Shown in pieces: positions 438 through 16,313 of a stretch of DNA of 64,000 bases. Every line of letters begins with the position of its first letter. Position 1 is the stretch's first letter. The notes under the pieces are model-generated. The model had not been told where the DNA came from, made no database searches, and saw only the letters and a list, made by a program, of their open reading frames with translations. A program made the position numbers and the translations under genes. The DNA is from Billgrantia campisalis (GTDB taxonomy: Bacteria; Pseudomonadota; Gammaproteobacteria; Pseudomonadales; Halomonadaceae). The stretch lies in NCBI RefSeq assembly GCF_022341425.1, contig NZ_JABFUC010000006.1, forward strand, positions 1 through 64,000. Direction: 5' to 3'.

Positions 438-537
438 GCCGCGTCGACGCGAGACGAGCCGATACGGCCGCCAACTGTGCGCCTGTCCCCGATTGGCGTA
501 GAATGATGACTTTCCACTGCTTGTTTTGGGGGCTCGC

Positions 538-888
538 TTGAGGTTGGAACCCGCTCGTTTCTTCAAGTGTCTGGGCGATGAGACCCGCCTGACGCTGATC
601 CTGCTGATTCAGCGTGAGGAGGAGCTGTGCGTCTGTGAAATGACCCACACCCTGGAGGAGTCCCAGCCCAAGGTGTCGCGCCATCTGGCCCAGCTGCGCA
701 CCTGCGGGCTGCTCAGCGACCGCCGCGACGGCCAGTGGGTCTACTACCGCTTGTCCGACGAGCTGCCGGAGTGGGTGCTGGAAGTGCTCGTGGCAGCCGA
801 CAAGGGGCAGGACGAGCGGCTGAGCGAGCTGCAGCAGCGGCTGTCGTGCATGGGCAATCGCCCCGAGCGGCGCCTGGCCATGTGCTGA
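538..888 (+). CDS. arsR: ArsR/SmtB-family arsenic-responsive repressor
   Basis: A small winged-helix repressor of about 116 residues, the usual ArsR length. The helix-turn-helix is SQPKVSRHLAQLR and the wing RRDGQWVYYRL. The metalloid site ELCVCE (Cys31, Cys33) sits at the start of the recognition region as in type I ArsR of the E. coli kind; the third E. coli cysteine position is replaced by His. I chose the TTG at 538 because it gives the family start (RLEPARFFKCLGDETRL) and has a G-rich Shine-Dalgarno six bases upstream; a TTG at 526 adds four residues. The gene converges on the arx operon and lies in the same window as acr3, so it is the obvious candidate regulator of both. No ATATATG-type operator is visible just upstream of arsR itself. 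Confidence 0.9.
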   Translation: MRLEPARFFKCLGDETRLTLILLIQREEELCVCEMTHTLEESQPKVSRHLAQLRTCGLLSDRRDGQWVYYRLSDELPEWVLEVLVAADKGQDERLSELQQRLSCMGNRPERRLAMC

Positions 889-2472: not shown

Positions 2473-3678
2473 TCAGGTCCCGGCCGGCTGCGCTGCGGCC
2501 TGTGGCGAATCGGCCAGCTGCTTGGGCATGTCGCCCAGGTCGAGGAACTTCTCGCCAAGCAGATAGAGCACGAAGAACAGCGACCAGCCGGCGATGGTCA
2601 GTGCCCACTCGGTGGCGGAGGGCGTATAGCTGATCAGGTTGGGGACCCAGGTGCCCTGGAACAGCGGCACCACCTGGCCGCCCACCACGAAGTAGAAGCG
2701 CTCGGCAAACAGCCCCAGGAACACCAGGCAGGCGACCAGCACCTGGATATCCATGCGGCTGCGCCATTGCGCGCCCAGCATCAGCGCGAAGGGCACCAGC
2801 AGGCCGACGATCAGCGAGAGGTTATAGAGCGGCGAGGCGAACAGGTAGTCGGTCCACACCAGGCTGATTTCCGGATTGTTGCTGTACAGCCCGGTGATGG
2901 CGCGGGCGGCGATGAACAGCAGGGTGCCGCCGATCAGCGCGGCGAACAGCTTGGGCAGCGCCCCGGTGAGCAGCGACTGCAGCGCTCGGGGCATCCGCTC
3001 GCGCTGGAAGCCGTAGGCCAGGTAGACGAAGAACACCAGGGCGGCCACGCCGCTGGTGACGCCGGTGAAGTAGAAGTAGATTGGCAGCAGGGCATCGAAC
3101 CAGAAGGGACGCATGCTCATCATGCCGAAGATCAGCGCCAGGTTGCCGCTGGCCAGCAGCACACCGATGAACGAGGCGATGCCCACCTGCTTGCTGGTCT
3201 TGCTGTCCCACTCGCCGTTCTGCAGCTTACTGAATTTCCACAGCAGGAACAGCAGGTCGAGGGCATAGAAGACCCCCATCCAGAACATCGCCGACTGTAT
3301 CTGCAGGTTCAGCGGGATGGCCCACAGCATGCGGAAGACATTGCCGAGTTCCAGCGCGAGGACCGCCATCCCCGAGATCAGCACGATGAAGGCCAGGAAG
3401 ATGCAGCGCTTGGCGATGGGGTAGTACTGCTTGAAGCCGAACACCAGCGGCAGCGAGGCGATCAGGCCGAGCCCCGAGGAGGCCAGGGCGAAGTAGAGAT
3501 AGGTAGCGATGGGCTGGCCCCAGGGCAGGGTGGAGCTGGTATTGAAGGAGGTGTGGCCCTGGGTCGCCAGTTGCACCACGCCATAGCCGAGGCTTGCCAG
3601 GAACACCAGCGAGGCGACCAGCAGCAGCAGCGAGCCCAGCTTGCCCTGCAGCGCATTGGGTTGGGTGTTGGCACTCAT
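2473..3678 (-). CDS. arxC: NrfD/PsrC-like membrane quinone subunit (ArxC-like)
   Basis: A 401-residue polytopic membrane protein with about ten hydrophobic segments, the NrfD/PsrC architecture. Recognisable parts include LLLLVASLVFLASLGYG (first helix), WGQPIATYLYFALASSGLG, and ERFYFVVGGQVVPLFQGTW near the C-terminus, the region that in the family faces the quinone site. In the arx system this subunit anchors the periplasmic A/B subunits and passes electrons from arsenite oxidation to the quinone pool. The start overlaps the arxB stop (ATGA), implying tight stoichiometric coupling. NrfD-like subunits also occur in polysulfide, tetrathionate and arsenate reductases; the Arx call depends on the catalytic subunit beside it. 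Confidence 0.88.
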   Translation of the reverse strand: MSANTQPNALQGKLGSLLLLVASLVFLASLGYGVVQLATQGHTSFNTSSTLPWGQPIATYLYFALASSGLGLIASLPLVFGFKQYYPIAKRCIFLAFIVLISGMAVLALELGNVFRMLWAIPLNLQIQSAMFWMGVFYALDLLFLLWKFSKLQNGEWDSKTSKQVGIASFIGVLLASGNLALIFGMMSMRPFWFDALLPIYFYFTGVTSGVAALVFFVYLAYGFQRERMPRALQSLLTGALPKLFAALIGGTLLFIAARAITGLYSNNPEISLVWTDYLFASPLYNLSLIVGLLVPFALMLGAQWRSRMDIQVLVACLVFLGLFAERFYFVVGGQVVPLFQGTWVPNLISYTPSATEWALTIAGWSLFFVLYLLGEKFLDLGDMPKQLADSPQAAAQPAGT

Positions 3679-4436
3679 GCGTCATTCTCCCTGTCAGCGG
3701 GGGTGAAGGCCGGTACCGCGGCGCCGGCGCCAAGATAGTAGACCTGGGGGCGGTTGCCGGTATGGTCCTTGAGACGTACCCCGTGCTTGTCGCCGATCAG
3801 CTGGTTGACCTGGCTCTCGGGGTTGTCCAGGTCGCCGAAGTAGCGCGCCTTGGGGGCGCAGGTACGCACGCAGGCCGGCACATACTCCTTGACCGCGGGG
3901 TTGTCCTCGTCGAGGTCGGCCACTCCCTCAGGGGCGTGCTTGACCTTGTGGTAACAGAAGGTGCACTTGGAGACCACGCCCGGCGGCTGGATGCCGATGC
4001 CGCGTCGCCAGTCCTCCTCGGGGTTCTGGTAGGGCGGGCTCCACAGCTGGCCATTCTCGCCCGGGAAGGCCTCGCGGACGTCCGGCTCGATCAGCGGTTT
4101 CTCGTCGGCATAGAAGCGCACGCCGTAGGGACAGGCGATCATGCAGTACTTGCAGCCGATGCACTTGTTCCAGTCGACGAAGACGATGCCGCCGGCATCC
4201 GGGTCCTTGTAGGTGGCCCGGGTCGGGCAGACATGCACGCAGGAGGGGTTCTCGCACTGCATGCAGGGCCGCGGCAGCCACTTCATCTGGGCGCTGGGAT
4301 ATTCGCCCTCGTGGTAGAAGAGCACGTCCTGCCAGCTCTCGCCCGGCAGGGTGTTGTTTTCCATGGAGCAAGCCGTGGTACAGGCCTGGCAGCCCGTGCA
4401 CTTGTCCAGGTCGATGACCATTCCCCATTTTGCCAT
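3675..4436 (-). CDS. arxB: Four-cluster Fe-S electron-transfer subunit (ArxB-like)
   Basis: A 253-residue ferredoxin-type subunit of the DMSO reductase family. Cysteine groups for four [4Fe-4S] clusters are visible: CTGCQACTTAC (residues ~13-23), CMQCENPSCVHVC, CIGCKYCMIAC, and a split set CTFC with CVRTC. There is no signal peptide, as expected for a subunit carried across the membrane with its Tat-tagged partner. It would wire the molybdenum subunit to the NrfD-like membrane subunit. The gene follows arxA after a 34-base gap and overlaps arxC by four bases. Cluster content is clear from the sequence; the direction of electron flow (arsenite to quinone) is inferred from the ArxA motif of its neighbour. 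Confidence 0.9.
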   Translation of the reverse strand: MAKWGMVIDLDKCTGCQACTTACSMENNTLPGESWQDVLFYHEGEYPSAQMKWLPRPCMQCENPSCVHVCPTRATYKDPDAGGIVFVDWNKCIGCKYCMIACPYGVRFYADEKPLIEPDVREAFPGENGQLWSPPYQNPEEDWRRGIGIQPPGVVSKCTFCYHKVKHAPEGVADLDEDNPAVKEYVPACVRTCAPKARYFGDLDNPESQVNQLIGDKHGVRLKDHTGNRPQVYYLGAGAAVPAFTPADRENDA

Positions 4437-4470: not shown

Positions 4471-6957
4471 TCAGGCGCGCTCGAGCCTGACCTTGCCGGT
4501 GTAGTAGCTGGCGAGTCCCGAGATCGGGTCGGACACATTGGCCGTCACCTCGCCGGAGTGGCCCGGGCCGCGGCCGGCGGCCCAGCGCCCCTGGGCCCAA
4601 TGGCCGAACTCGAAGGGCAGGACCAAAGTGTCCGGGCGGTGGGCGGCCACGAAACGGCATTCGGCCTCGATGCTGCCCAGGTCCGAGGTGATCCTGACCC
4701 GGTCGCCGTTGCGGATGCCGCGCTCCCGGGCCGTGCGCGGATGCACCTCCAGGTAGACGGTGTCGCGGCCGCCGACGATGGGCTGGTGGATGGCGATGTT
4801 GTGGGGAATGTTGGCGCCGCGCCCTTCGGCGTGCAGCGGGGTCTTGGGAGTCACGAAATAGAGATCGCCGTCGCCGCCGCTGTGCACCGGCTCGACCCAC
4901 TGGATCAGCCCCACGCGTTCGCGGGGAATGCCCATCTCCGTCTCGATATAGTCGGCATGGGCCTCCAGGAAGCCGGACTTGAACTCGAACTTGCCAGAGG
5001 GGGTCCTGAGCAGCTTGGCCTTTACCTCCTCGGGGGGCATCTGAAGGTTGTAGTCGAGGCCGTCCCACTCATAGAAGCGCCCGCGCTCCAAGCGCCAGTG
5101 GTAGGGTTTCTTGTACCAGACGCCTTTCTCCTTCCAGCTCTCGAAGTCGTTCACGCCGTTGTCACCGGGATTATCGGCGAAGCCGGCGGCCCGGTGGCGC
5201 AGCACGTTCTCGACGCTGTCGAGCTCCCGGTAGTATTCGCCCGCCGGGCCGTTCAGCCGCTTGCCGATACCGATCAGGATGTCGCCGAAGTGGCGGGTGT
5301 CGTAGATCGGTTCCACCGCCGGCACGCGCAGGGCGGTCATCGGCCAGCCCTCGAAGGGGTAGGTGGGGGAGTCCTGCAGCCGCTCCAGGTAGGTCGAATC
5401 CGGCAGGATCAGGTCGGCATACATGGCGGTCTCGCCGGGGAACGGCGAGGTGTCGATGATGAAGACATCCTTGAAGGCCTCTTCCCACACCTTGGGATCC
5501 GGTGCGGTCCAGATCGGGTTGGTGTAGAAGAACATGGCGGTGTCGAGCTTGTAGGGGTCGCCCGCCAGGTGGTTGGGGCCCGTCTCCTGCATCATGTGGC
5601 TGGTCATGGGCCAGCGTTCGGTGCGCGCCATGTCGATGCGCGGCTGCTCCTTCCAGGCGCCGTTGCGGGCATAGTCGTCCAGATAGTCGTCGGCGCTCAC
5701 CGGCAGGTCGCCGTAGGGCACGCCCATCTGGTAGCCGAGCCCGCCCTTGGCGAACAGTGAGCCCACCAGGGCATTGAGGGCGTGAATGGCCATGCCGTTG
5801 TAGGTGCCGTTGGTGTGGCCGGTGGGACCGCGCTCGAACAGCGCCACGGCGGGGCGGGTCGAACCGAACTCGATGGCGGTTTGGCGAATGTGGCGGGCGG
5901 GAATGGTGGTAATCGTCTCGGCCCATTCCGGCGTGCGATCTTTGAGCTCCTGGTTCCACCACTCGGTCAGGCCGTGGACCCAGTTCTCCTCGAAGGAATC
6001 CTCGGGAATGTCCTCGCCGCTGACGAAGCGGCGCGAGGCCTGGTAAAAATCGCCGACGAACTCCTTGTCCCACAGCCCCTCGGTGAGGATCACATGGGCC
6101 ACCGCCAGGGCGAAGGCGCCGTCGGTGCCGGGCTTGATATAGAGCGCCCGGTCGGCGGCCGCCATGGTGGGGTTCATGCGCACGTCGACACAGGTGACCC
6201 GGGTCTTGGGGCTCTTGCTGCGCATATGGCCCCACATCTGCATCACGTTGTTATAGGGACGGAAGGCCTCGAGGAAGCTTGCCCCCATGATCAACAGGTA
6301 GTTGGTGTTGCGGTAATCGTAGGAGTTGTAGGAGTCGTTGCCGTCGGTGGCGCGCTTGGCCCGCTTGGAGCCCTCGGCACACATGGAGGCGTGGCCGATG
6401 GCGGAGTTGGGCGTGCCGTAGAGTTTGCCGAAGTCGCCGTAGAGGCCCGCATCGGACGCCCCCCAGCCGCGCCCGTAGAAATGCGCGAAGCGATGGGATT
6501 CCCCCCGGTCGCGCAGCCCGTTGAGTCGCTCGGCGACCATGTCCAGCGCCTCGTCCCAGGAGATCGGCACGAAGCCGGGGTCCTCGTCGCGCCCCTTGTT
6601 GGGGTTGGTGCGCTTCATGGGCCCCTTGAAGCGGTCCGGGTCGTAGAGGAAGTAGCTGCCCAGGTGCCCCTTGGGGCAGAGCTTGCCGTTGGCGATGGGG
6701 TTGCCGCTGTCGCCGTAGATGGCGTGTACGCGCCCGTCGGTGGTGTAGACGTCGATGCCGCAGCGCGCCGGGCACTGGGCGCAGATGTTCTTGGTCACTA
6801 CGGTGTCGCCCCGCACCGTCTGGGCGCGGGCCTCCTTGACGGGGGTGAGCCCGGTCAGCCCGGTGATGCCCGCCGTCACGGCGCCGGCCGAAGCGCCCAC
6901 CGCAGCGGTCGATTGCAAAAATCGGCGCCGATTGATCAATGACTGGAACAGTTTCAT
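4471..6957 (-). CDS. arxA: Respiratory arsenite oxidase catalytic subunit (ArxA-clade molybdopterin oxidoreductase)
   Basis: An 828-residue enzyme of the DMSO reductase family. The N-terminus carries a twin-arginine signal (RRRFLQS, residues 10-16, then a hydrophobic stretch and AQT), so it is exported folded to the periplasm. A [4Fe-4S] site follows (Cys59, Cys62, Cys66, Cys94), then the molybdopterin domains, with Cys193 in HASMCAEG as the likely Mo ligand. Residues 160-166 read FYGRGWG: GRGWG is the signature described for ArxA, whereas ArrA arsenate reductases have (R/K)GRY at this place. ArxA oxidises arsenite to arsenate anaerobically, passing electrons through ArxB and ArxC to quinone; ArxA-type enzymes can run backwards in vitro. 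The chosen ATG (6957) places the RR motif correctly. Remaining doubt concerns only in vivo direction. Confidence 0.9.
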   Translation of the reverse strand: MKLFQSLINRRRFLQSTAAVGASAGAVTAGITGLTGLTPVKEARAQTVRGDTVVTKNICAQCPARCGIDVYTTDGRVHAIYGDSGNPIANGKLCPKGHLGSYFLYDPDRFKGPMKRTNPNKGRDEDPGFVPISWDEALDMVAERLNGLRDRGESHRFAHFYGRGWGASDAGLYGDFGKLYGTPNSAIGHASMCAEGSKRAKRATDGNDSYNSYDYRNTNYLLIMGASFLEAFRPYNNVMQMWGHMRSKSPKTRVTCVDVRMNPTMAAADRALYIKPGTDGAFALAVAHVILTEGLWDKEFVGDFYQASRRFVSGEDIPEDSFEENWVHGLTEWWNQELKDRTPEWAETITTIPARHIRQTAIEFGSTRPAVALFERGPTGHTNGTYNGMAIHALNALVGSLFAKGGLGYQMGVPYGDLPVSADDYLDDYARNGAWKEQPRIDMARTERWPMTSHMMQETGPNHLAGDPYKLDTAMFFYTNPIWTAPDPKVWEEAFKDVFIIDTSPFPGETAMYADLILPDSTYLERLQDSPTYPFEGWPMTALRVPAVEPIYDTRHFGDILIGIGKRLNGPAGEYYRELDSVENVLRHRAAGFADNPGDNGVNDFESWKEKGVWYKKPYHWRLERGRFYEWDGLDYNLQMPPEEVKAKLLRTPSGKFEFKSGFLEAHADYIETEMGIPRERVGLIQWVEPVHSGGDGDLYFVTPKTPLHAEGRGANIPHNIAIHQPIVGGRDTVYLEVHPRTARERGIRNGDRVRITSDLGSIEAECRFVAAHRPDTLVLPFEFGHWAQGRWAAGRGPGHSGEVTANVSDPISGLASYYTGKVRLERA
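6460..6474 (-). other. GRGWG codons, ArxA clade-defining motif
   Basis: These five codons of the molybdoenzyme gene encode Gly-Arg-Gly-Trp-Gly at residues 162-166. The published distinction between ArxA (GRGWG) and ArrA ((R/K)GRY) falls at this site near the catalytic pocket, and it decides the annotation of the whole operon. Confidence 0.85.
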
Positions 6958-7046
6958 GGAGTCTCCCTCGGGATGCACATCGCGTCGGTCGTGGATCGGT
7001 TCGATCCGTTGTTGTTGGCTTTTCTCGCTGTCATGGCGTTGCTGGG

Positions 7047-8105
7047 TTATTCGAACAGGTCGTGAAAACTCTCCTTCATCAGGGCGTTCTCGCGCCGGCA
7101 AGCGGGGCACTCGCTGCTTTGGTCGGCGCTGCGGCGCGTGAAGGGGCGGCGGCAGCGGAAGCACCGGGCCGTCTCGTCATGGCGCAGCGTTCGGGTGTCG
7201 CCGGAGGTGTTGCCGGTCATGCTCAACGCCTGTTCGGGACAGGCGGTCAGGCAGTGGCCGCAGTCGAGGCAGGCCAGCGGGTCGAAGCGCAGTTCGCCCT
7301 CGGGTGTCTCCTGCAGGGCCTCGGTAGGGCAGACCCGGGCACAGACGCCGTGGGCGCGGCAGGCATCGGTTTGTAGCGAGAGGCCGGGCAGAGGAGGGGC
7401 GAAGCGCCCGTCGAGCGCCTCGGCGGCGGCCGCCTGGCGTGCCAGGCGGCGTGCCCGGGGCGCGGTGTCGTCGTCGGCGATGGTCGCCAGCCGCGGGCTG
7501 CCCTGGCCCAGCAGGAAACCGCGCCGGCTCACGGCGGCCCCGGCGGCGGTATAGTCGCGCTTAGCCTCGCTCTCCCGGAGGGTGCAGATCGCCCGGGCCT
7601 GCTCGAGCCAGGCGTCATGCTCTCGCTTCGGCGCCGCCAGGCAGCCCCGGCAGGCATCGGGAAGGCGTAGCTCCAGCTCCCCGGGCGTTGCCCGGGCGCT
7701 AAGCCAGGCGAGCAGGTCGGGCCCCAGGGCACGCAGGCAGTGCAGCCGTGTCTGGTCCGGGGCATCCACCGTCCGGTGACAGCCCAGCCGCAGCGGCGCC
7801 CCGGCGGGGCCTGCGTCGAGCAGCGACTGAATCTCCGCGCTGACCAGCGCCTCGGTCGGACAGGCGGCCACGCACTGTGCGCAACCGTGGCAGGCGTCAC
7901 TGGCCAGGAGGGAAAAGCCGCCGTCGACGTCCTCATGGAAGGCGAGAGCCTCGGCCGGGCAGGCGTTGCGGCAGTGCGTACAGGCCAGAGGGTGGGGCGG
8001 GGCTTCGAGGCAGCGCGGTGCCAACCAGCCGATTCCCAGCCGCGATTTACGCAGCGGCTGCGGGGTAGTGGCTTGGGTCAACATTGCACTGTCACGGTTT
8101 GGCAT
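7047..8105 (-). CDS. Polyferredoxin, first gene of the arx operon (ArxB'-like)
   Basis: A 352-residue iron-sulfur protein. Ferredoxin-type cysteine groups are visible at residues 42-49 (CTHCRNAC), 72-82 (CHGCAQCVAAC), 249-259 (CRAHGVCARVC) and 279-289 (CLDCGHCLTAC). A CxxC pair set near the end (CFRC ... CPAC) resembles a rubredoxin-like or zinc ribbon. In the middle, residues 193-198 read SRRGFL, the kind of sequence that starts NapF-type ferredoxins, so the protein looks like two ferredoxin modules fused. No N-terminal signal peptide is seen, so it is probably cytoplasmic. Known arx clusters have a separate Fe-S gene (arxB') upstream of arxA; this gene fits that position, but I cannot prove orthology. 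The start at 8105 lacks a strong ribosome site; ATG 8084 is an alternative. Confidence 0.8.
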   Translation of the reverse strand: MPNRDSAMLTQATTPQPLRKSRLGIGWLAPRCLEAPPHPLACTHCRNACPAEALAFHEDVDGGFSLLASDACHGCAQCVAACPTEALVSAEIQSLLDAGPAGAPLRLGCHRTVDAPDQTRLHCLRALGPDLLAWLSARATPGELELRLPDACRGCLAAPKREHDAWLEQARAICTLRESEAKRDYTAAGAAVSRRGFLLGQGSPRLATIADDDTAPRARRLARQAAAAEALDGRFAPPLPGLSLQTDACRAHGVCARVCPTEALQETPEGELRFDPLACLDCGHCLTACPEQALSMTGNTSGDTRTLRHDETARCFRCRRPFTRRSADQSSECPACRRENALMKESFHDLFE

Positions 8106-8133: not shown

Positions 8134-8158
8134 TTATATATGCATCTATGTATATTTT
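8134..8158. promoter_or_regulatory. AT-rich imperfect dyad, candidate ArsR operator at the arx promoter
   Basis: An AT-rich island in a GC-rich intergenic region. It contains TTATATATGCAT followed by CTATGTATATTTT, an imperfect dyad of the kind bound by ArsR-family repressors. It sits about 30 bases upstream of the polyferredoxin start and includes TATA-like hexamers on the minus strand, so a bound repressor would block the arx promoter. A closely similar element lies before acr3 (12021-12040). Inferred from sequence only. Confidence 0.5.
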
Positions 8159-8240
8159 GCAGCGTTGCAGATAAGCTGGCCGCGTGCCAGCGCCCTCCCG
8201 GCCGAACTAGCCGAAAGTGCAACGACGAGGGTGCGGCAAT

Positions 8241-8254
8241 TTGCCCTAGATCAA
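8241..8254. promoter_or_regulatory. Possible FNR/Anr half-site
   Basis: TTGCCCTAGATCAA has the FNR spacing (5-4-5) with one perfect half (ATCAA) and one degenerate half (TTGCC against TTGAT). It lies 17 bases before the ATG at 8272 and about 135 bases upstream of the arx operon. Oxygen control would suit an anaerobic arsenite oxidase, but one half-site is weak evidence. Confidence 0.22.
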
Positions 8255-8271: not shown

Positions 8272-8721
8272 ATGCCGGTTCTGGTCGAAGCCACGGCGGT
8301 GATCATCAAGGCCGAGGCCATCGAAAAGCGCCTTGAGGGGGGCTGGACCACGTTTCGCGATAGCGTGCCCACGGCGTCCTTCTGCTCGGACGATGAGCTG
8401 GTCAGTGTCTGTCTGGTGGACCCCGATGCGGTCACCCGTTTTGCCAACCGGCTGGCCGAGCTGGGCCTACGCTTTCGCTGGGAAGGTCCCTTCGAGGACA
8501 TCGCCTTTGCCGATCAGAAGCGGGGATTGATCACTCCCTGTGACTGGGTGAGCTTCGAGACCGTCAATATCGGGATCGGCGGCACACCGCCGGCCGTGGC
8601 GATCTGCCGGCGGACGGGCAGCCACTCCCATGAGCTGCGCGCGCCAGAAGGCTGGCGCTATCAGGGCTCGCTCAGCGAGGCCTTTGGGGCGGAGGGCAGC
8701 GGACCGGCCGCGTCGTTCTGA
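8272..8721 (+). CDS. Unrecognised 149-aa protein divergent from the arx operon
   Basis: I do not recognise this family. The ATG has an excellent ribosome site (AGGAGGTTAGG). The protein is about 149 residues, soluble, without signal peptide or membrane segment, and moderately acidic. It contains the stretches IEKRLEGGWTTFRDSVP, CSDDELVSVCLVDPDAV and WVSFETVNIGIGG. Cysteines are scattered (CSDDELVSVC, TPCDW, ICRR) and do not form a standard metal motif. It shares the 166-bp intergenic region with the arx operon and is transcribed away from it, an arrangement often seen for a co-regulated accessory gene. It converges on the thiolase gene downstream. Coding status is well supported by start, composition and length; function is unknown. 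Confidence 0.75.
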   Translation: MPVLVEATAVIIKAEAIEKRLEGGWTTFRDSVPTASFCSDDELVSVCLVDPDAVTRFANRLAELGLRFRWEGPFEDIAFADQKRGLITPCDWVSFETVNIGIGGTPPAVAICRRTGSHSHELRAPEGWRYQGSLSEAFGAEGSGPAASF

Positions 8722-10890: not shown

Positions 10891-11991
10891 TTAGCCTTTT
10901 GCCCCGGCGGCCGCCGGGGCCTCGGCCTCGGGGAAGTGGTGCCGGGTCTTGTTGGCGATGCGCACCAGCGCCAGCATCAGCGGCACCTCTACCAGCACCC
11001 CCACCACCGTGGCCAGCGCCGCGCCGGACTGCAGGCCGAACAGGGCGATGGCGGCGGCAACGGCCAGCTCGAAGAAGTTGCTGGCGCCGATCATCGCCCC
11101 GGGGGCGGCGACGTTGTGGGGCACCTTCCACGCCTTGGCCCAGCCATAGGCGATAAAGAAGATCAGGAAGGTCTGGATGATCAGCGGGATGGCGATCAGC
11201 ACGATGTGCAGCGGGTTGGCGATGATCACCTCGCCCTGGAAGGCGAACAGCAGCACCAGGGTGATGATCAGCCCGATCGGGGTGACCGGTGCCAGGCGTT
11301 TCATGAAGACGTTGTCGTACCACTCGATGCCGCGGCGGGCGATCAGGGTGCGCCGTGTCAGGTAGCCGGCGGCCAGCGGAATCACGATATACAGCAAGAC
11401 CGACAGGGCGACCGTGTCCCAGGGGACCTGGATATTGGAGACGCCGAGCAGGAAGACCACGATGGGCGCGAAGGCGAACAGCATGATCAGGTCATTGAGG
11501 GCGACCTGCACCAGGGTGTAGGCGGCGTCGCCTCGGGTCAGGTAGCTCCAGACGAAGACCATGGCAGTACAGGGCGCCGCTCCCAGCAGGATGGCCCCGG
11601 CCAGGTATTCACTGGCACGATCCTCGGGAATCAGCGGAGCGAACACCACCATCAGGAAGAACCAGGCGATGGCGAACATGGTGAAGGGCTTGATCAGCCA
11701 GTTCACCGAGGTGGTAATGACCAGCCCCTTGGGCTGGCGGCGCACGCCGAGCACGGCGGTAAAGTCGATCTGCGCCATCATGGGAAAGATCATCGCCCAG
11801 ATCAGGATCGCCACCGGGATCGACACCTGGGCATATTCGAAGCGCGATAGCGTTTCGGGCACCGCCGGGGCGAACTGACCGAGCAGCACCCCGACGACGA
11901 TGGCCAGCGCCACCCAGACCGAGAGGAAGCGCTCAAACAGTCCCATTCCTTCGGAGGTGCTGGGGGCCTGGGTATCCTGGTGTGCGGTCAT
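10891..11991 (-). CDS. acr3: Acr3-family arsenite efflux permease
   Basis: A 366-residue inner-membrane protein with about ten helices, the Acr3 (BART superfamily) fold. The invariant cysteine is Cys141 in GAAPCTAMVFVWSYLTRGD; the second critical residue is Glu335 in GVLVEVPLML; IGASNFFELAVA is also an Acr3 hallmark. It expels arsenite using the proton gradient. The ATG has a good ribosome site (AGGAGTCGTGC). An AT-rich palindrome lies 30-50 bases upstream, and the stress protein gene follows closely. Together with arsR it forms the detoxification arm next to the arsenite-oxidising arx operon. Identification is firm. Confidence 0.96.
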   Translation of the reverse strand: MTAHQDTQAPSTSEGMGLFERFLSVWVALAIVVGVLLGQFAPAVPETLSRFEYAQVSIPVAILIWAMIFPMMAQIDFTAVLGVRRQPKGLVITTSVNWLIKPFTMFAIAWFFLMVVFAPLIPEDRASEYLAGAILLGAAPCTAMVFVWSYLTRGDAAYTLVQVALNDLIMLFAFAPIVVFLLGVSNIQVPWDTVALSVLLYIVIPLAAGYLTRRTLIARRGIEWYDNVFMKRLAPVTPIGLIITLVLLFAFQGEVIIANPLHIVLIAIPLIIQTFLIFFIAYGWAKAWKVPHNVAAPGAMIGASNFFELAVAAAIALFGLQSGAALATVVGVLVEVPLMLALVRIANKTRHHFPEAEAPAAAGAKG

Positions 11992-12020
11992 GCACGACTC
12001 CTGAATTCGGGAAATCGATT

Positions 12021-12040
12021 ATATATGGATTGGCATATAT
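12021..12040. promoter_or_regulatory. Inverted repeat ATATATG-N6-CATATAT, candidate ArsR operator of acr3
   Basis: ATATATG (12021-12027) and CATATAT (12034-12040) are perfect 7-base inverted repeats separated by GATTGG, in the leader of acr3. The left arm and flank (TTATATATG) are identical to the element before the arx operon. Operator function is inferred. Confidence 0.55.
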
Positions 12041-12118: not shown

Positions 12119-12778
12119 TCAGTCGCCAGCCGGTGCGTTGCGCTGCGAGGGAGCCCGCTGAAATGCCGGTGAGACCCGGTTCGGGTCCTGCACATCGCGC
12201 TGGCGGGCGGCGGCCTCGCTCCACCAGGCGAGCTGGGCCAGGGTACGGCCGAAGTAGCCGGCCCAGCGGTCGGGTTCCTCGAAAAAACGGCCATCCTCGT
12301 CGAGCGCTTCCTGAGCCTTCGGCACGTGGATCATCGCCGATACCGGCAGGCAACCGAGTTCCGCAAGGAAGGTGCGCATCGCCACGGCCGCCCGGGCGCC
12401 GCCCCACTGGCCGGCGGAGTAGGTGACGATGGCGCTGGGCTTGAAGGCAAACAGCGAGCTGCCGAAGTGGTTGAGCAGGTGGGCGAGCGCAGGGCTCATG
12501 GAGTGGTTGTACTCGGGGCTGACCATCACATAGCCGTCGGCGGCCTCGATCTTTGCGGCCAGGGCATCCAGCGCTTCCGGCGCTCGGGTCTTGGCGTAGG
12601 CGAAGTGGGGCTTGAAGACGGACCCGAGTTCGATCTCAAGCGGGTCGATCAGCTCCACCGCGGCGCCGTCGGCCTCGAGCAGGCTGGTGCAGGCCCGGGC
12701 CACTCGCAGGCCGAGGCGGGCGGGAGAGGGGGGCGTGCTGTCCCGGGCGGAGCCCAGGAAGACCAGGAAGCGGGGCAT
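12119..12778 (-). CDS. NADPH-dependent FMN reductase (flavodoxin-like fold)
   Basis: A 219-residue flavoprotein of the NADPH-dependent FMN reductase family. The phosphate loop FLGSARDSTPP binds FMN, and the PEYNHSMSPALAHLLNHFGS segment (about residues 92-112) and YSAGQWGGARA are typical of this family. It could reduce quinones, chromate or free flavin. It is not a clear ArsH: the ArsH N-terminal signature is absent. The ATG at 12778 has AAGGAGAAACACC upstream. It lies upstream of acr3 on the same strand with the candidate operator between them, so it is probably a separate transcript. The last ~25 residues are polar and variable. Confidence 0.88.
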   Translation of the reverse strand: MPRFLVFLGSARDSTPPSPARLGLRVARACTSLLEADGAAVELIDPLEIELGSVFKPHFAYAKTRAPEALDALAAKIEAADGYVMVSPEYNHSMSPALAHLLNHFGSSLFAFKPSAIVTYSAGQWGGARAAVAMRTFLAELGCLPVSAMIHVPKAQEALDEDGRFFEEPDRWAGYFGRTLAQLAWWSEAAARQRDVQDPNRVSPAFQRAPSQRNAPAGD

Positions 12779-15126: not shown

Positions 15127-16313
15127 CAGTCGATCAGCTCGACCGCCACTGCGGTGGCTTCGCCGCCGCCGATGCACAGGCTGGCGATGCCGCGCTTGCC
15201 GCCCTTGGTGCGCAGGGCATGGATCAGGGTGGCGATGATCCGCGAGCCGGTGGAGCCGATGGGGTGGCCCTGGGCGCAGGCGCCGCCGTAGACGTTGACC
15301 TTGTCGTGGGGGATGTCGAGCCCGTCCATGGCCAGCAGGGTGACTACCGCGAAGGCTTCGTTGATCTCGAACAGGTCGACGTCGGAGACGCTCCAGTCGA
15401 GTTTCTTCAGCAGCTTGTCGATGGCGCCCACCGGGGCGATGGTGAACTCGCTGGGATGCTGGGAGTGGGTGCTGTGACCCAGCATGCGCGCCAGCGGCTT
15501 GGCCCCCAGGCGGTCCGCCGCCGCCTGGCTGGCCAGGATCAGCGCCGAGGCGCCGTCGGAGATGGAGCTCGAGTTGGCGGCGGTGATGGTGCCCTCCTTG
15601 GCGAAGGCCGGCCGCAGCGAGCGGATCTTGTCGAGATTGGCCTGGAAGGGCTGCTCGTCATGCTCGACCAGCGTTTCGCCCTTGCGGCTGGTCACGGTGA
15701 CCGCTGCCATCTCGGCGTTCAGATGGCCGTCGTTGGTGGCCGCCATGGCGCGCTCCAGGGAGGCGATGGCGAAGTCGTCCAGGCGCTCGCGGCTGTAGTC
15801 CCGGGCGCTGGCGACATCCTGGGCGAACACGCCCATCAGCTTGCCGGTCTCGGCGTCTTCCAGGCCGTCCAGGAACATGTGATCCTTGAGCTCGCCGTGG
15901 CCCAGGCGATAGCCGGTGCGCGCCTTGGTCAGCACGTGGGGCGCGTTGGACATGGACTCCATGCCGCCGGCCAGCATCACCTCGCCGCTGCCGGCGCGAA
16001 TCAGGTCGTGGGCCAGCATGGTGGCCTTCATGCCCGAGCCGCACAGCTTGTTGACGGTGGTGGCGCCGATGCCGTCGGGAATACCGGCCTGGCGCATGGC
16101 CTGGCGGGCCGGGCCCTGCTTGACGCCGCCGGGCAGCACGCAGCCCATGATGCCTTCATCGATGCTGGCGGCCTCGATGCCGGCGCGCTCGATGGCGGCG
16201 CGGATGGCCACGGCGGCGAGCTCCGGCGCCGTCATGCTGGAGAGGCTGCCCAGCATGCCGCCCATGGGGGTGCGGGTCGCGGACAGAAAGACGATATCGT
16301 TGGGGCTGCTCAT
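15126..16313 (-). CDS. Thiolase, acetyl-CoA acetyltransferase (second copy)
   Basis: A 395-residue thiolase with Cys91 in NKLCGSG, the FEINEAFAVVTL loop, YGGACAQGHPIGSTG with the catalytic His, and CIGGGEATA at the end. It differs clearly from the thiolase at 8758-9942 (for example ACAQGHPIGST against AIAHGHPIGAT), so the two are paralogues, not a duplication. The ATG at 16313 has GGGAGA upstream. It is the first gene of a two-gene operon with the hydrolase and is divergent from the TetR gene; an operator-like sequence sits between them. Likely role: the final cleavage step of an acyl-CoA degradation pathway. Confidence 0.94.
   Translation of the reverse strand: MSSPNDIVFLSATRTPMGGMLGSLSSMTAPELAAVAIRAAIERAGIEAASIDEGIMGCVLPGGVKQGPARQAMRQAGIPDGIGATTVNKLCGSGMKATMLAHDLIRAGSGEVMLAGGMESMSNAPHVLTKARTGYRLGHGELKDHMFLDGLEDAETGKLMGVFAQDVASARDYSRERLDDFAIASLERAMAATNDGHLNAEMAAVTVTSRKGETLVEHDEQPFQANLDKIRSLRPAFAKEGTITAANSSSISDGASALILASQAAADRLGAKPLARMLGHSTHSQHPSEFTIAPVGAIDKLLKKLDWSVSDVDLFEINEAFAVVTLLAMDGLDIPHDKVNVYGGACAQGHPIGSTGSRIIATLIHALRTKGGKRGIASLCIGGGEATAVAVELID

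Follow-up and report, generated by a model that had tools for sequence, protein, structure and literature searches.

According to PMC6549141, the arx clusters of Alkalilimnicola ehrlichii MLHE-1 and Ectothiorhodospira have their structural genes in the order arxB2ABCD with the regulatory genes arxXSR beside them, and the large subunit ArxA has the motif XGRGWG where its counterpart in ArrA is (R/K)GRY. The same text records arx without arxXSR in Halomonas, Marinospirillum and Nitrincola, and arsenite oxidase proteins (AioAB, ArxA) are reported for several Halomonas species in PMC8014003. Halomonas sp. ANAO-440 has arxB2ABCD and denitrification genes, lacks arxXSR, aio and arr, and carries out nitrate-coupled arsenite oxidation (PMC8530029); the authors suggest a distinct regulatory mechanism for arx without arxXSR, and name no regulator or promoter element. 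Here we analyse an arx operon in a stretch of 64,000 nt from Billgrantia campisalis (contig NZ_JABFUC010000006.1, positions 1 to 64,000), called the window below. Its genome is like ANAO-440, i.e. a Halomonas host with the order arxB2ABCD, denitrification genes, and no arxXSR, aio or arr found, the likeness being to the description in that paper rather than to the sequence. It shares gene order and XGRGWG with MLHE-1 and Ectothiorhodospira as so described; there arxXSR accompany the structural genes, whereas here the control region has a box of ArsR type and one resembling an FNR site, and the divergent gene is a different one.

The enzyme itself is already known; what is new is the control region of arx. 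The region contains a palindromic box in common with the promoter of the arsenite efflux gene acr3, and this box is very probably an operator for ArsR. A literature search, with most subscription papers outside its coverage, found no account of arx being preceded by an element for ArsR or FNR.

The large subunit and its operon

The arxA gene (4471-6957, minus strand) encodes a molybdopterin protein of 828 aa counted from the ATG at 6957, with the Pfam domains Molybdop_Fe4S4, Molybdopterin and Molydop_binding. On this numbering GRGWG occupies residues 162-166, where a sequence-only reading of this DNA had placed it. The twin-arginine translocation (Tat) signal described in that reading is present as a twin-arginine run from residue 10, read from the sequence and not from a signal-peptide predictor, and there are N-terminal cysteines at 59, 62, 66 and 94. 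The closest solved relative is an ArrA (PDB 6cz7), homologous over residues 61-829 (E 1.4e-108). It has RGRY at the alignment position where the window ArxA has GRGWG, and RGRY is also found there in three ArrA-like proteins that were fetched.

A contig scan gave 60 loci matching arx, with 60-96% identity in the best segment, and homology to so many related loci excludes chance as the source of the observation. A phylogeny of the large subunit, put forward as a check with the sequence-only reading, was built quickly by maximum likelihood from 61 rows (54 ArxA, 3 ArrA-like, 1 PhsA and 3 other molybdoenzymes), with TtrA, PsrA and characterised ArrA absent, long outgroup branches and an unsure deep root. 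In this tree the window protein lies inside the ArxA group (54 rows, Shimodaira-Hasegawa approximate likelihood ratio test (SH-aLRT) 100) and within a subclade consisting entirely of Oceanospirillales (15 rows, SH-aLRT 99), where it pairs with Halomonas sp. DQ26W at 95% identity. The three ArrA-like rows are set apart (SH-aLRT 100), and PhsA is also apart. GRGWG is present in 54/54 ArxA rows, a count that is partly circular as row selection required the motif; seven loci were dropped at this selection, five being shorter frames with the motif and two (L062 and L063) ending short of its position. Against the curated ArrA model the window ArxA scores 427 bits and does not reach the cut-off of 1600, and the ArrA-like proteins L138 and L096 are also below it (1155 and 1115 bits). 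On tree, motif and curated cut-offs, ArrA, PhsA and Nap/Nar were rejected as the identity of the large subunit, and enzyme and operon are almost certainly an Arx-type respiratory arsenite oxidase of the known kind.

The possession of GRGWG and not RGRY, the position in the ArxA clade and the nitrate reductases in the genome make it very improbable that the enzyme is mainly an arsenate reductase in the cell, even though its nearest solved structure is ArrA and a publication title calls a respiratory arsenate reductase a bidirectional enzyme, which we take to be the enzyme of MLHE-1. Moreover, anaerobic oxidation of arsenite with nitrate is documented for a Halomonas that carries this cluster (PMC8530029). 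By likeness to ANAO-440 we infer that the present strain would also oxidise arsenite in vivo.

The operon runs on the minus strand from 8105 to 934, in the order arxB2 (also arxB′, 7047-8105), arxA, arxB (3675-4436), arxC (2473-3678), arxD (1416-2405) and a sixth gene for an FKBP-type peptidyl-prolyl isomerase (934-1419; PF00254, E 1.4e-6). ArxB2 (352 aa, with two ferredoxin-like halves, and aligned across 48 loci) and the 4Fe-4S electron-transfer subunit ArxB both have Pfam 4Fe-4S dicluster domains. ArxC is an NrfD-like membrane subunit (PF03916, E 2.8e-21) and ArxD is a TorD/NarJ-like chaperone (PF02613, Nitrate_red_del, E 5.4e-12; weak match to TIGR03482). Domains and coordinates agree with the Fe-S subunit, NrfD-like subunit and TorD-like chaperone that had been read in the order arxB′ABCD. 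The span given at that time, 4471-8105, contains arxB2 and arxA but leaves the rest of the operon outside, and the description of it as complete holds for the structural genes, all of which are present, but not for the classical cluster, from which arxXSR are missing; neither this gap nor the promoter was remarked on in that reading.

Overlaps of 4 bases are found between arxB and arxC and between arxD and the isomerase gene; this suggests that the arx genes and the isomerase form a single transcript. The isomerase gene follows arxD in 13/13 Oceanospirillales loci with a long flank, and a relative was detected in 12/32 loci that have arxXSR. It is not mentioned in PMC8530029, and the term FKBP has 0 occurrences in PMC6549141.

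We note that the linker between the ferredoxin halves of ArxB2 contains a twin-arginine motif, RR-x-[FL], in all 48 aligned proteins (SRRGFL from residue 193 in the window), far from the N-terminus. Beyond the operon, and convergent with it, is an arsR gene (526-888, plus strand; NF007528 above cut-off, PF01022) with the motif ELCVCE. The start of the contig (1-437) appears to encode the C-terminal portion of an ATPase for phosphate transport (pstB), with its upstream part interrupted, by the contig edge or by a rearrangement.

Absence of arxXSR

ArxX, ArxS and ArxR from three other loci were used as queries, and a locus was judged only if its upstream flank, counted from arxA, was 5 kb or longer. 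All three genes are absent from 13/13 Oceanospirillales loci with such a flank, including the window (none in its first 20 kb), and all three are present in 32/32 loci from outside the Oceanospirillales. The flank was too short for a call in 16 of the 61 loci, among them L024, where some 2 kb precede arxB2 and ArxX gave no match. A search with the ArxX of L028 against 12 arx-bearing genomes of the family gave only 25-31% matches in eight and nothing in four. The one match in the window's own genome is at 25% and belongs to a phosphonate-binding family, and a distant ArxX homologue was thus rejected as the regulator. The ArxR of L028 carries a sigma-54 interaction domain. For Azoarcus CIB, the role of ArxSR is described as not yet demonstrated experimentally (PMC6683785).

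A box common to the arx and acr3 promoters

Nine Halomonadaceae loci were aligned over the 166 bp that separate arxB2 from the divergent gene. A box resembling ATATGNNAATNCNCATATAA stands just before arxB2 in six of the nine; that of the window (8134-8155, minus strand, 28 bp before the arxB2 ATG) is more degenerate, and two Vreelandella rows are gapped. A matrix was built from six boxes of other genomes, leaving out the window's own box and the two from Vreelandella. On scanning the 64-kb window this matrix gave 30.2 bits at the acr3 promoter and 22.9 bits at the arx promoter, and the next independent place scored 11.1 bits. None of 1000 column-shuffled matrices reached 30.2 bits (maximum 23.8); 149 of them were also best at the acr3 promoter, none as high. 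The acr3 box (12019-12040, minus strand) is 27 bp before the ATG of acr3 (10891-11991, minus strand), the product of which exceeds the cut-off of TIGR00832 with 405.6 bits. Upstream of acr3 is a gene (12119-12778) that resembles NADPH-dependent flavin mononucleotide reductases; its identification as ArsH is unsupported, the Pfam match being FMN_red with no ArsH match in NCBIfam.

Searching the whole genome with the box as a pattern led to the same promoter, the best match having one mismatch and lying 27 bp ahead of the acr3 start. Allowing up to three mismatches gave three places, compared with two for the reversed pattern. Across 12 genomes the degenerate pattern gave 93 matches vs 76 for the reversed control, so the pattern is specific only when few mismatches are allowed. 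Ten matches had no more than two mismatches, and by their coordinates six of these are placed in arx promoters, two upstream of acr3, one upstream of gapdh-arsJ and one upstream of aioB.

The relationship was also examined from the side of acr3. A matrix from five hand-picked acr3 sites gave 10.4-27.2 bits for the 15 Oceanospirillales arx promoters and no more than 8.8 bits for 33 others (0/400 column-shuffled matrices match the gap or the median), a separation that is partly circular as the five sites were chosen among matches of the arx matrix. A de novo motif search, less clean but non-circular, was therefore made in the 110 bp that precede acr3, taking 11 Oceanospirillales loci and leaving arx out of account. 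The motif obtained is a palindrome with the consensus ATATACGGATTAGCATATAT. With its matrix 11 of the 15 arx promoters from Oceanospirillales exceed every one of the 33 others (p 1.6e-7, for promoters that share ancestry and are not 15 independent events). The medians are 16.6 and 2.9 bits respectively, the window scores 20.7 bits, and 0/300 column-shuffled matrices attain the median or the 11/15 count. The separation is not explained by AT-richness alone.

Further boxes in relatives precede gapdh-arsJ (L008, L010 and L059), arsC-arsR (L014) and arsR-arsC-acr3 (L036), and in Halomonas gemina (L018) there is a box at 15188 with aioB, for the small subunit of the aerobic arsenite oxidase, at 15293. 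NCBIfam provides the names of GAPDH and ArsJ of L008, GAPDH of L059 and AioB of L018 (above cut-off), and Pfam those of ArsC (low-molecular-weight phosphatase fold) of L014 and ArsR of L036; the remaining names were given by eye. It is because the box stands before acr3, gapdh-arsJ, arsC-arsR, arsR and aioB that we read it as an ArsR operator.

The regulator need not be the ArsR encoded at 526-888. The box might belong to another regulator of arsenic genes, either a second arsenic-responsive repressor or one linked to phosphate, with this ArsR not acting on arx; consistent with this, the arx-matrix scan found no box before the window's own arsR, which sits behind the pstB-like fragment. Yet in L036 the box is directly before arsR, and in L014 it precedes arsC with arsR further along the same strand. 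In addition, of six proteins with an HTH_5 match in the genome, that of 526-888 alone has C-x-C in the helix-turn-helix region (among the others, the neighbours were viewed for L102). We therefore consider another regulator unlikely, and control of arx by ArsR likely from comparison of the sequences. The latter estimate was left unchanged by the de novo test, which is less clean but non-circular, and the box at aioB adds support.

FNR-like and sigma-54-like sites in the arx promoter

Sites for FNR and for sigma-54 were scored against their consensus sequences, that of FNR being TTGAT-N4-ATCAA. The window has an FNR/Anr-like box, TTGATCTAGGGCAA, at 8241-8254 on the minus strand, and TTGA-N7-CAA is aligned in 9/9 Halomonadaceae arx promoters. 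At least 8 of 10 FNR bases are matched in 12/15 Oceanospirillales upstream regions vs 3/33 others. Taken locus by locus, the p-values within the Oceanospirillales extend from about 0 to 0.7, and the two Nitrincola loci have their best match elsewhere. Two Fnr proteins of the genome exceed the curated cut-off. Judged on these matches, the chances for and against anaerobic control of arx by FNR appear about even. A further conserved element, TGGC ... TCTGC(C/A)A (8162-8189), lies in the arx promoter between the ArsR-type and the FNR-like box.

The window also contains a sigma-54-like sequence, CTGGCACGCGGCCAGCT, at 8174-8190, which agrees with the consensus at 11/13 positions including GG-N10-GC, a match equalled in 0/200 shuffles. 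A distant activator acting at this site would make arx a sigma-54-dependent operon after all. Matches of at least 11/13 upstream of arxB2 were found in 15/33 loci from outside the Oceanospirillales, but in 1/15 within that order, this one being the window; the remaining 14 reach at most 10, the site is unconserved in the alignment, and a genome-wide search, made with ArxX alone, found no close match. Sigma-54 control was set aside on the lack of conservation in relatives, and we regard it as very unlikely.

Distribution and electron acceptors

ArxA was found at 79% identity or more in 16 of 275 genomes of the family, with matches of 35-40% in three more; one of these three was scanned (L096), and is ArrA-like. 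This patchy occurrence suggests that the trait has been transferred or lost within the family. In Halomonas gemina both arsenite oxidases are adjacent, with aioB (named by NCBIfam) and aioA (by eye) lying directly downstream of the arx operon (L018, 15188-18323).

The genome of the window has six molybdopterin-family matches, i.e. arxA and five others. The five are NapA, NarG, a protein with its best scores against formate dehydrogenase and assimilatory nitrate reductase models, and a pair of partial frames, L004 (scanned, and formate-dehydrogenase-like) and L005. The cut-offs for AioA and ArrA were not reached by any of the four scanned, L005 having been left out. With NapA and NarG in the genome, a route for electrons from arsenite through quinone to nitrate is plausible.

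A divergent gene of no known family

On the other side of the arx promoter an orphan gene (8272-8721, plus strand) encodes a protein of 149 aa that has no match in Pfam or NCBIfam and a single match, at chance level, in PHROGs. The gene is present in 11/13 Oceanospirillales loci with a long flank, the two without it being from Marinospirillum, and in 0/32 loci with arxXSR. In the family, 13/275 genomes have a match to the protein, and 11 of these have ArxA. Of the other two, genome G194 has its match on a 3.4-kb contig beside a frame that resembles arxB2 by eye, and in G199 there are two short fragments, with ArxA absent. Five of the 16 genomes with ArxA have no orphan match, namely two of Marinospirillum and three with short contigs. 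The association of the orphan with the arx cluster, seen in Halomonadaceae and Nitrincola, is real. Distant relatives of the protein occur elsewhere at 20-37% identity, and the family thus extends beyond arx.

The predicted structure is of middling confidence (predicted local distance difference test 70.5, predicted template modelling score 0.70). The best Foldseek match has an E-value of 0.64, and the best Z is 6.1 over 71 residues, in the range of common arrangements. All rows of the fold search are weak and many are PII-like; the model resembles PII proteins only weakly, and the fold may be a different one.

Discussion

The explanation that we favour as a whole, and consider probable, is an Arx oxidase encoded by an operon that is controlled by ArsR, probably with the assistance of FNR/Anr. 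ArxD would assist the folding of ArxA, and ArxAB would be exported by Tat. In the periplasm ArxA would convert arsenite to arsenate, and the electrons would pass through ArxB, perhaps with ArxB2, into the membrane subunit ArxC, and from there into the quinone pool, with NarG or NapA as the likely anaerobic sink. As a replacement for ArxXSR and sigma-54, arx would be repressed by the ArsR that senses As(III) in the resistance regulon, acting through the box that arx and acr3 have in common. Arsenite would then release ArsR from the arx box, and an FNR/Anr protein would probably add an anaerobic signal.

A number of observations weigh against this explanation. The window's own arx box is degenerate, scoring 22.9 bits compared with 37-43 bits for the six boxes from which the matrix was built, and it is not among the pattern matches with up to three mismatches. 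Of the 11 acr3 regions, only six have a clear instance of the de novo motif, the other five being unconvincing, and the lowest Oceanospirillales arx promoter with its matrix, L011 from Marinospirillum, has just 3.6 bits. To these are added the shared ancestry of the 15 promoters, the lack of a box before the window's arsR, and the sigma-54-like site at 8174-8190. The FNR-like box of the window matches only 8/10 consensus bases. Lastly, arxXSR have been called conserved in anaerobic arsenite oxidisers (PMC5908839).

The arr operon of Shewanella is reportedly under the control of ArsR while serving arsenate respiration. It is thus like the proposal made here in being a respiratory arsenic operon under a resistance repressor, but it encodes an arsenate reductase, whereas the window encodes an arsenite oxidase for which ArsR control is deduced from sequence only. 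In Agrobacterium, ArsR proteins partly influence aioB (PMC7965956).

A more far-reaching possibility is that the arx operons of the Oceanospirillales have been captured by the resistance regulon, with repression by ArsR, its release by arsenite and an anaerobic requirement added by FNR/Anr, and that the orphan is a dedicated partner of Arx, perhaps a sensor or accessory protein, which has replaced ArxXSR. We put this forward tentatively, and think it somewhat less likely than not.

The small protein of no known family is identified here as one that travels with the arx cluster. The shared operator makes a specific prediction out of a gap in the printed record, i.e. the Halomonas-type arx without arxXSR. 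If it is true, arx and arsenite efflux would be switched by a single sensor of arsenite that is intracellular and not periplasmic, and arsenite respiration would therefore start only after arsenite has entered the cell.

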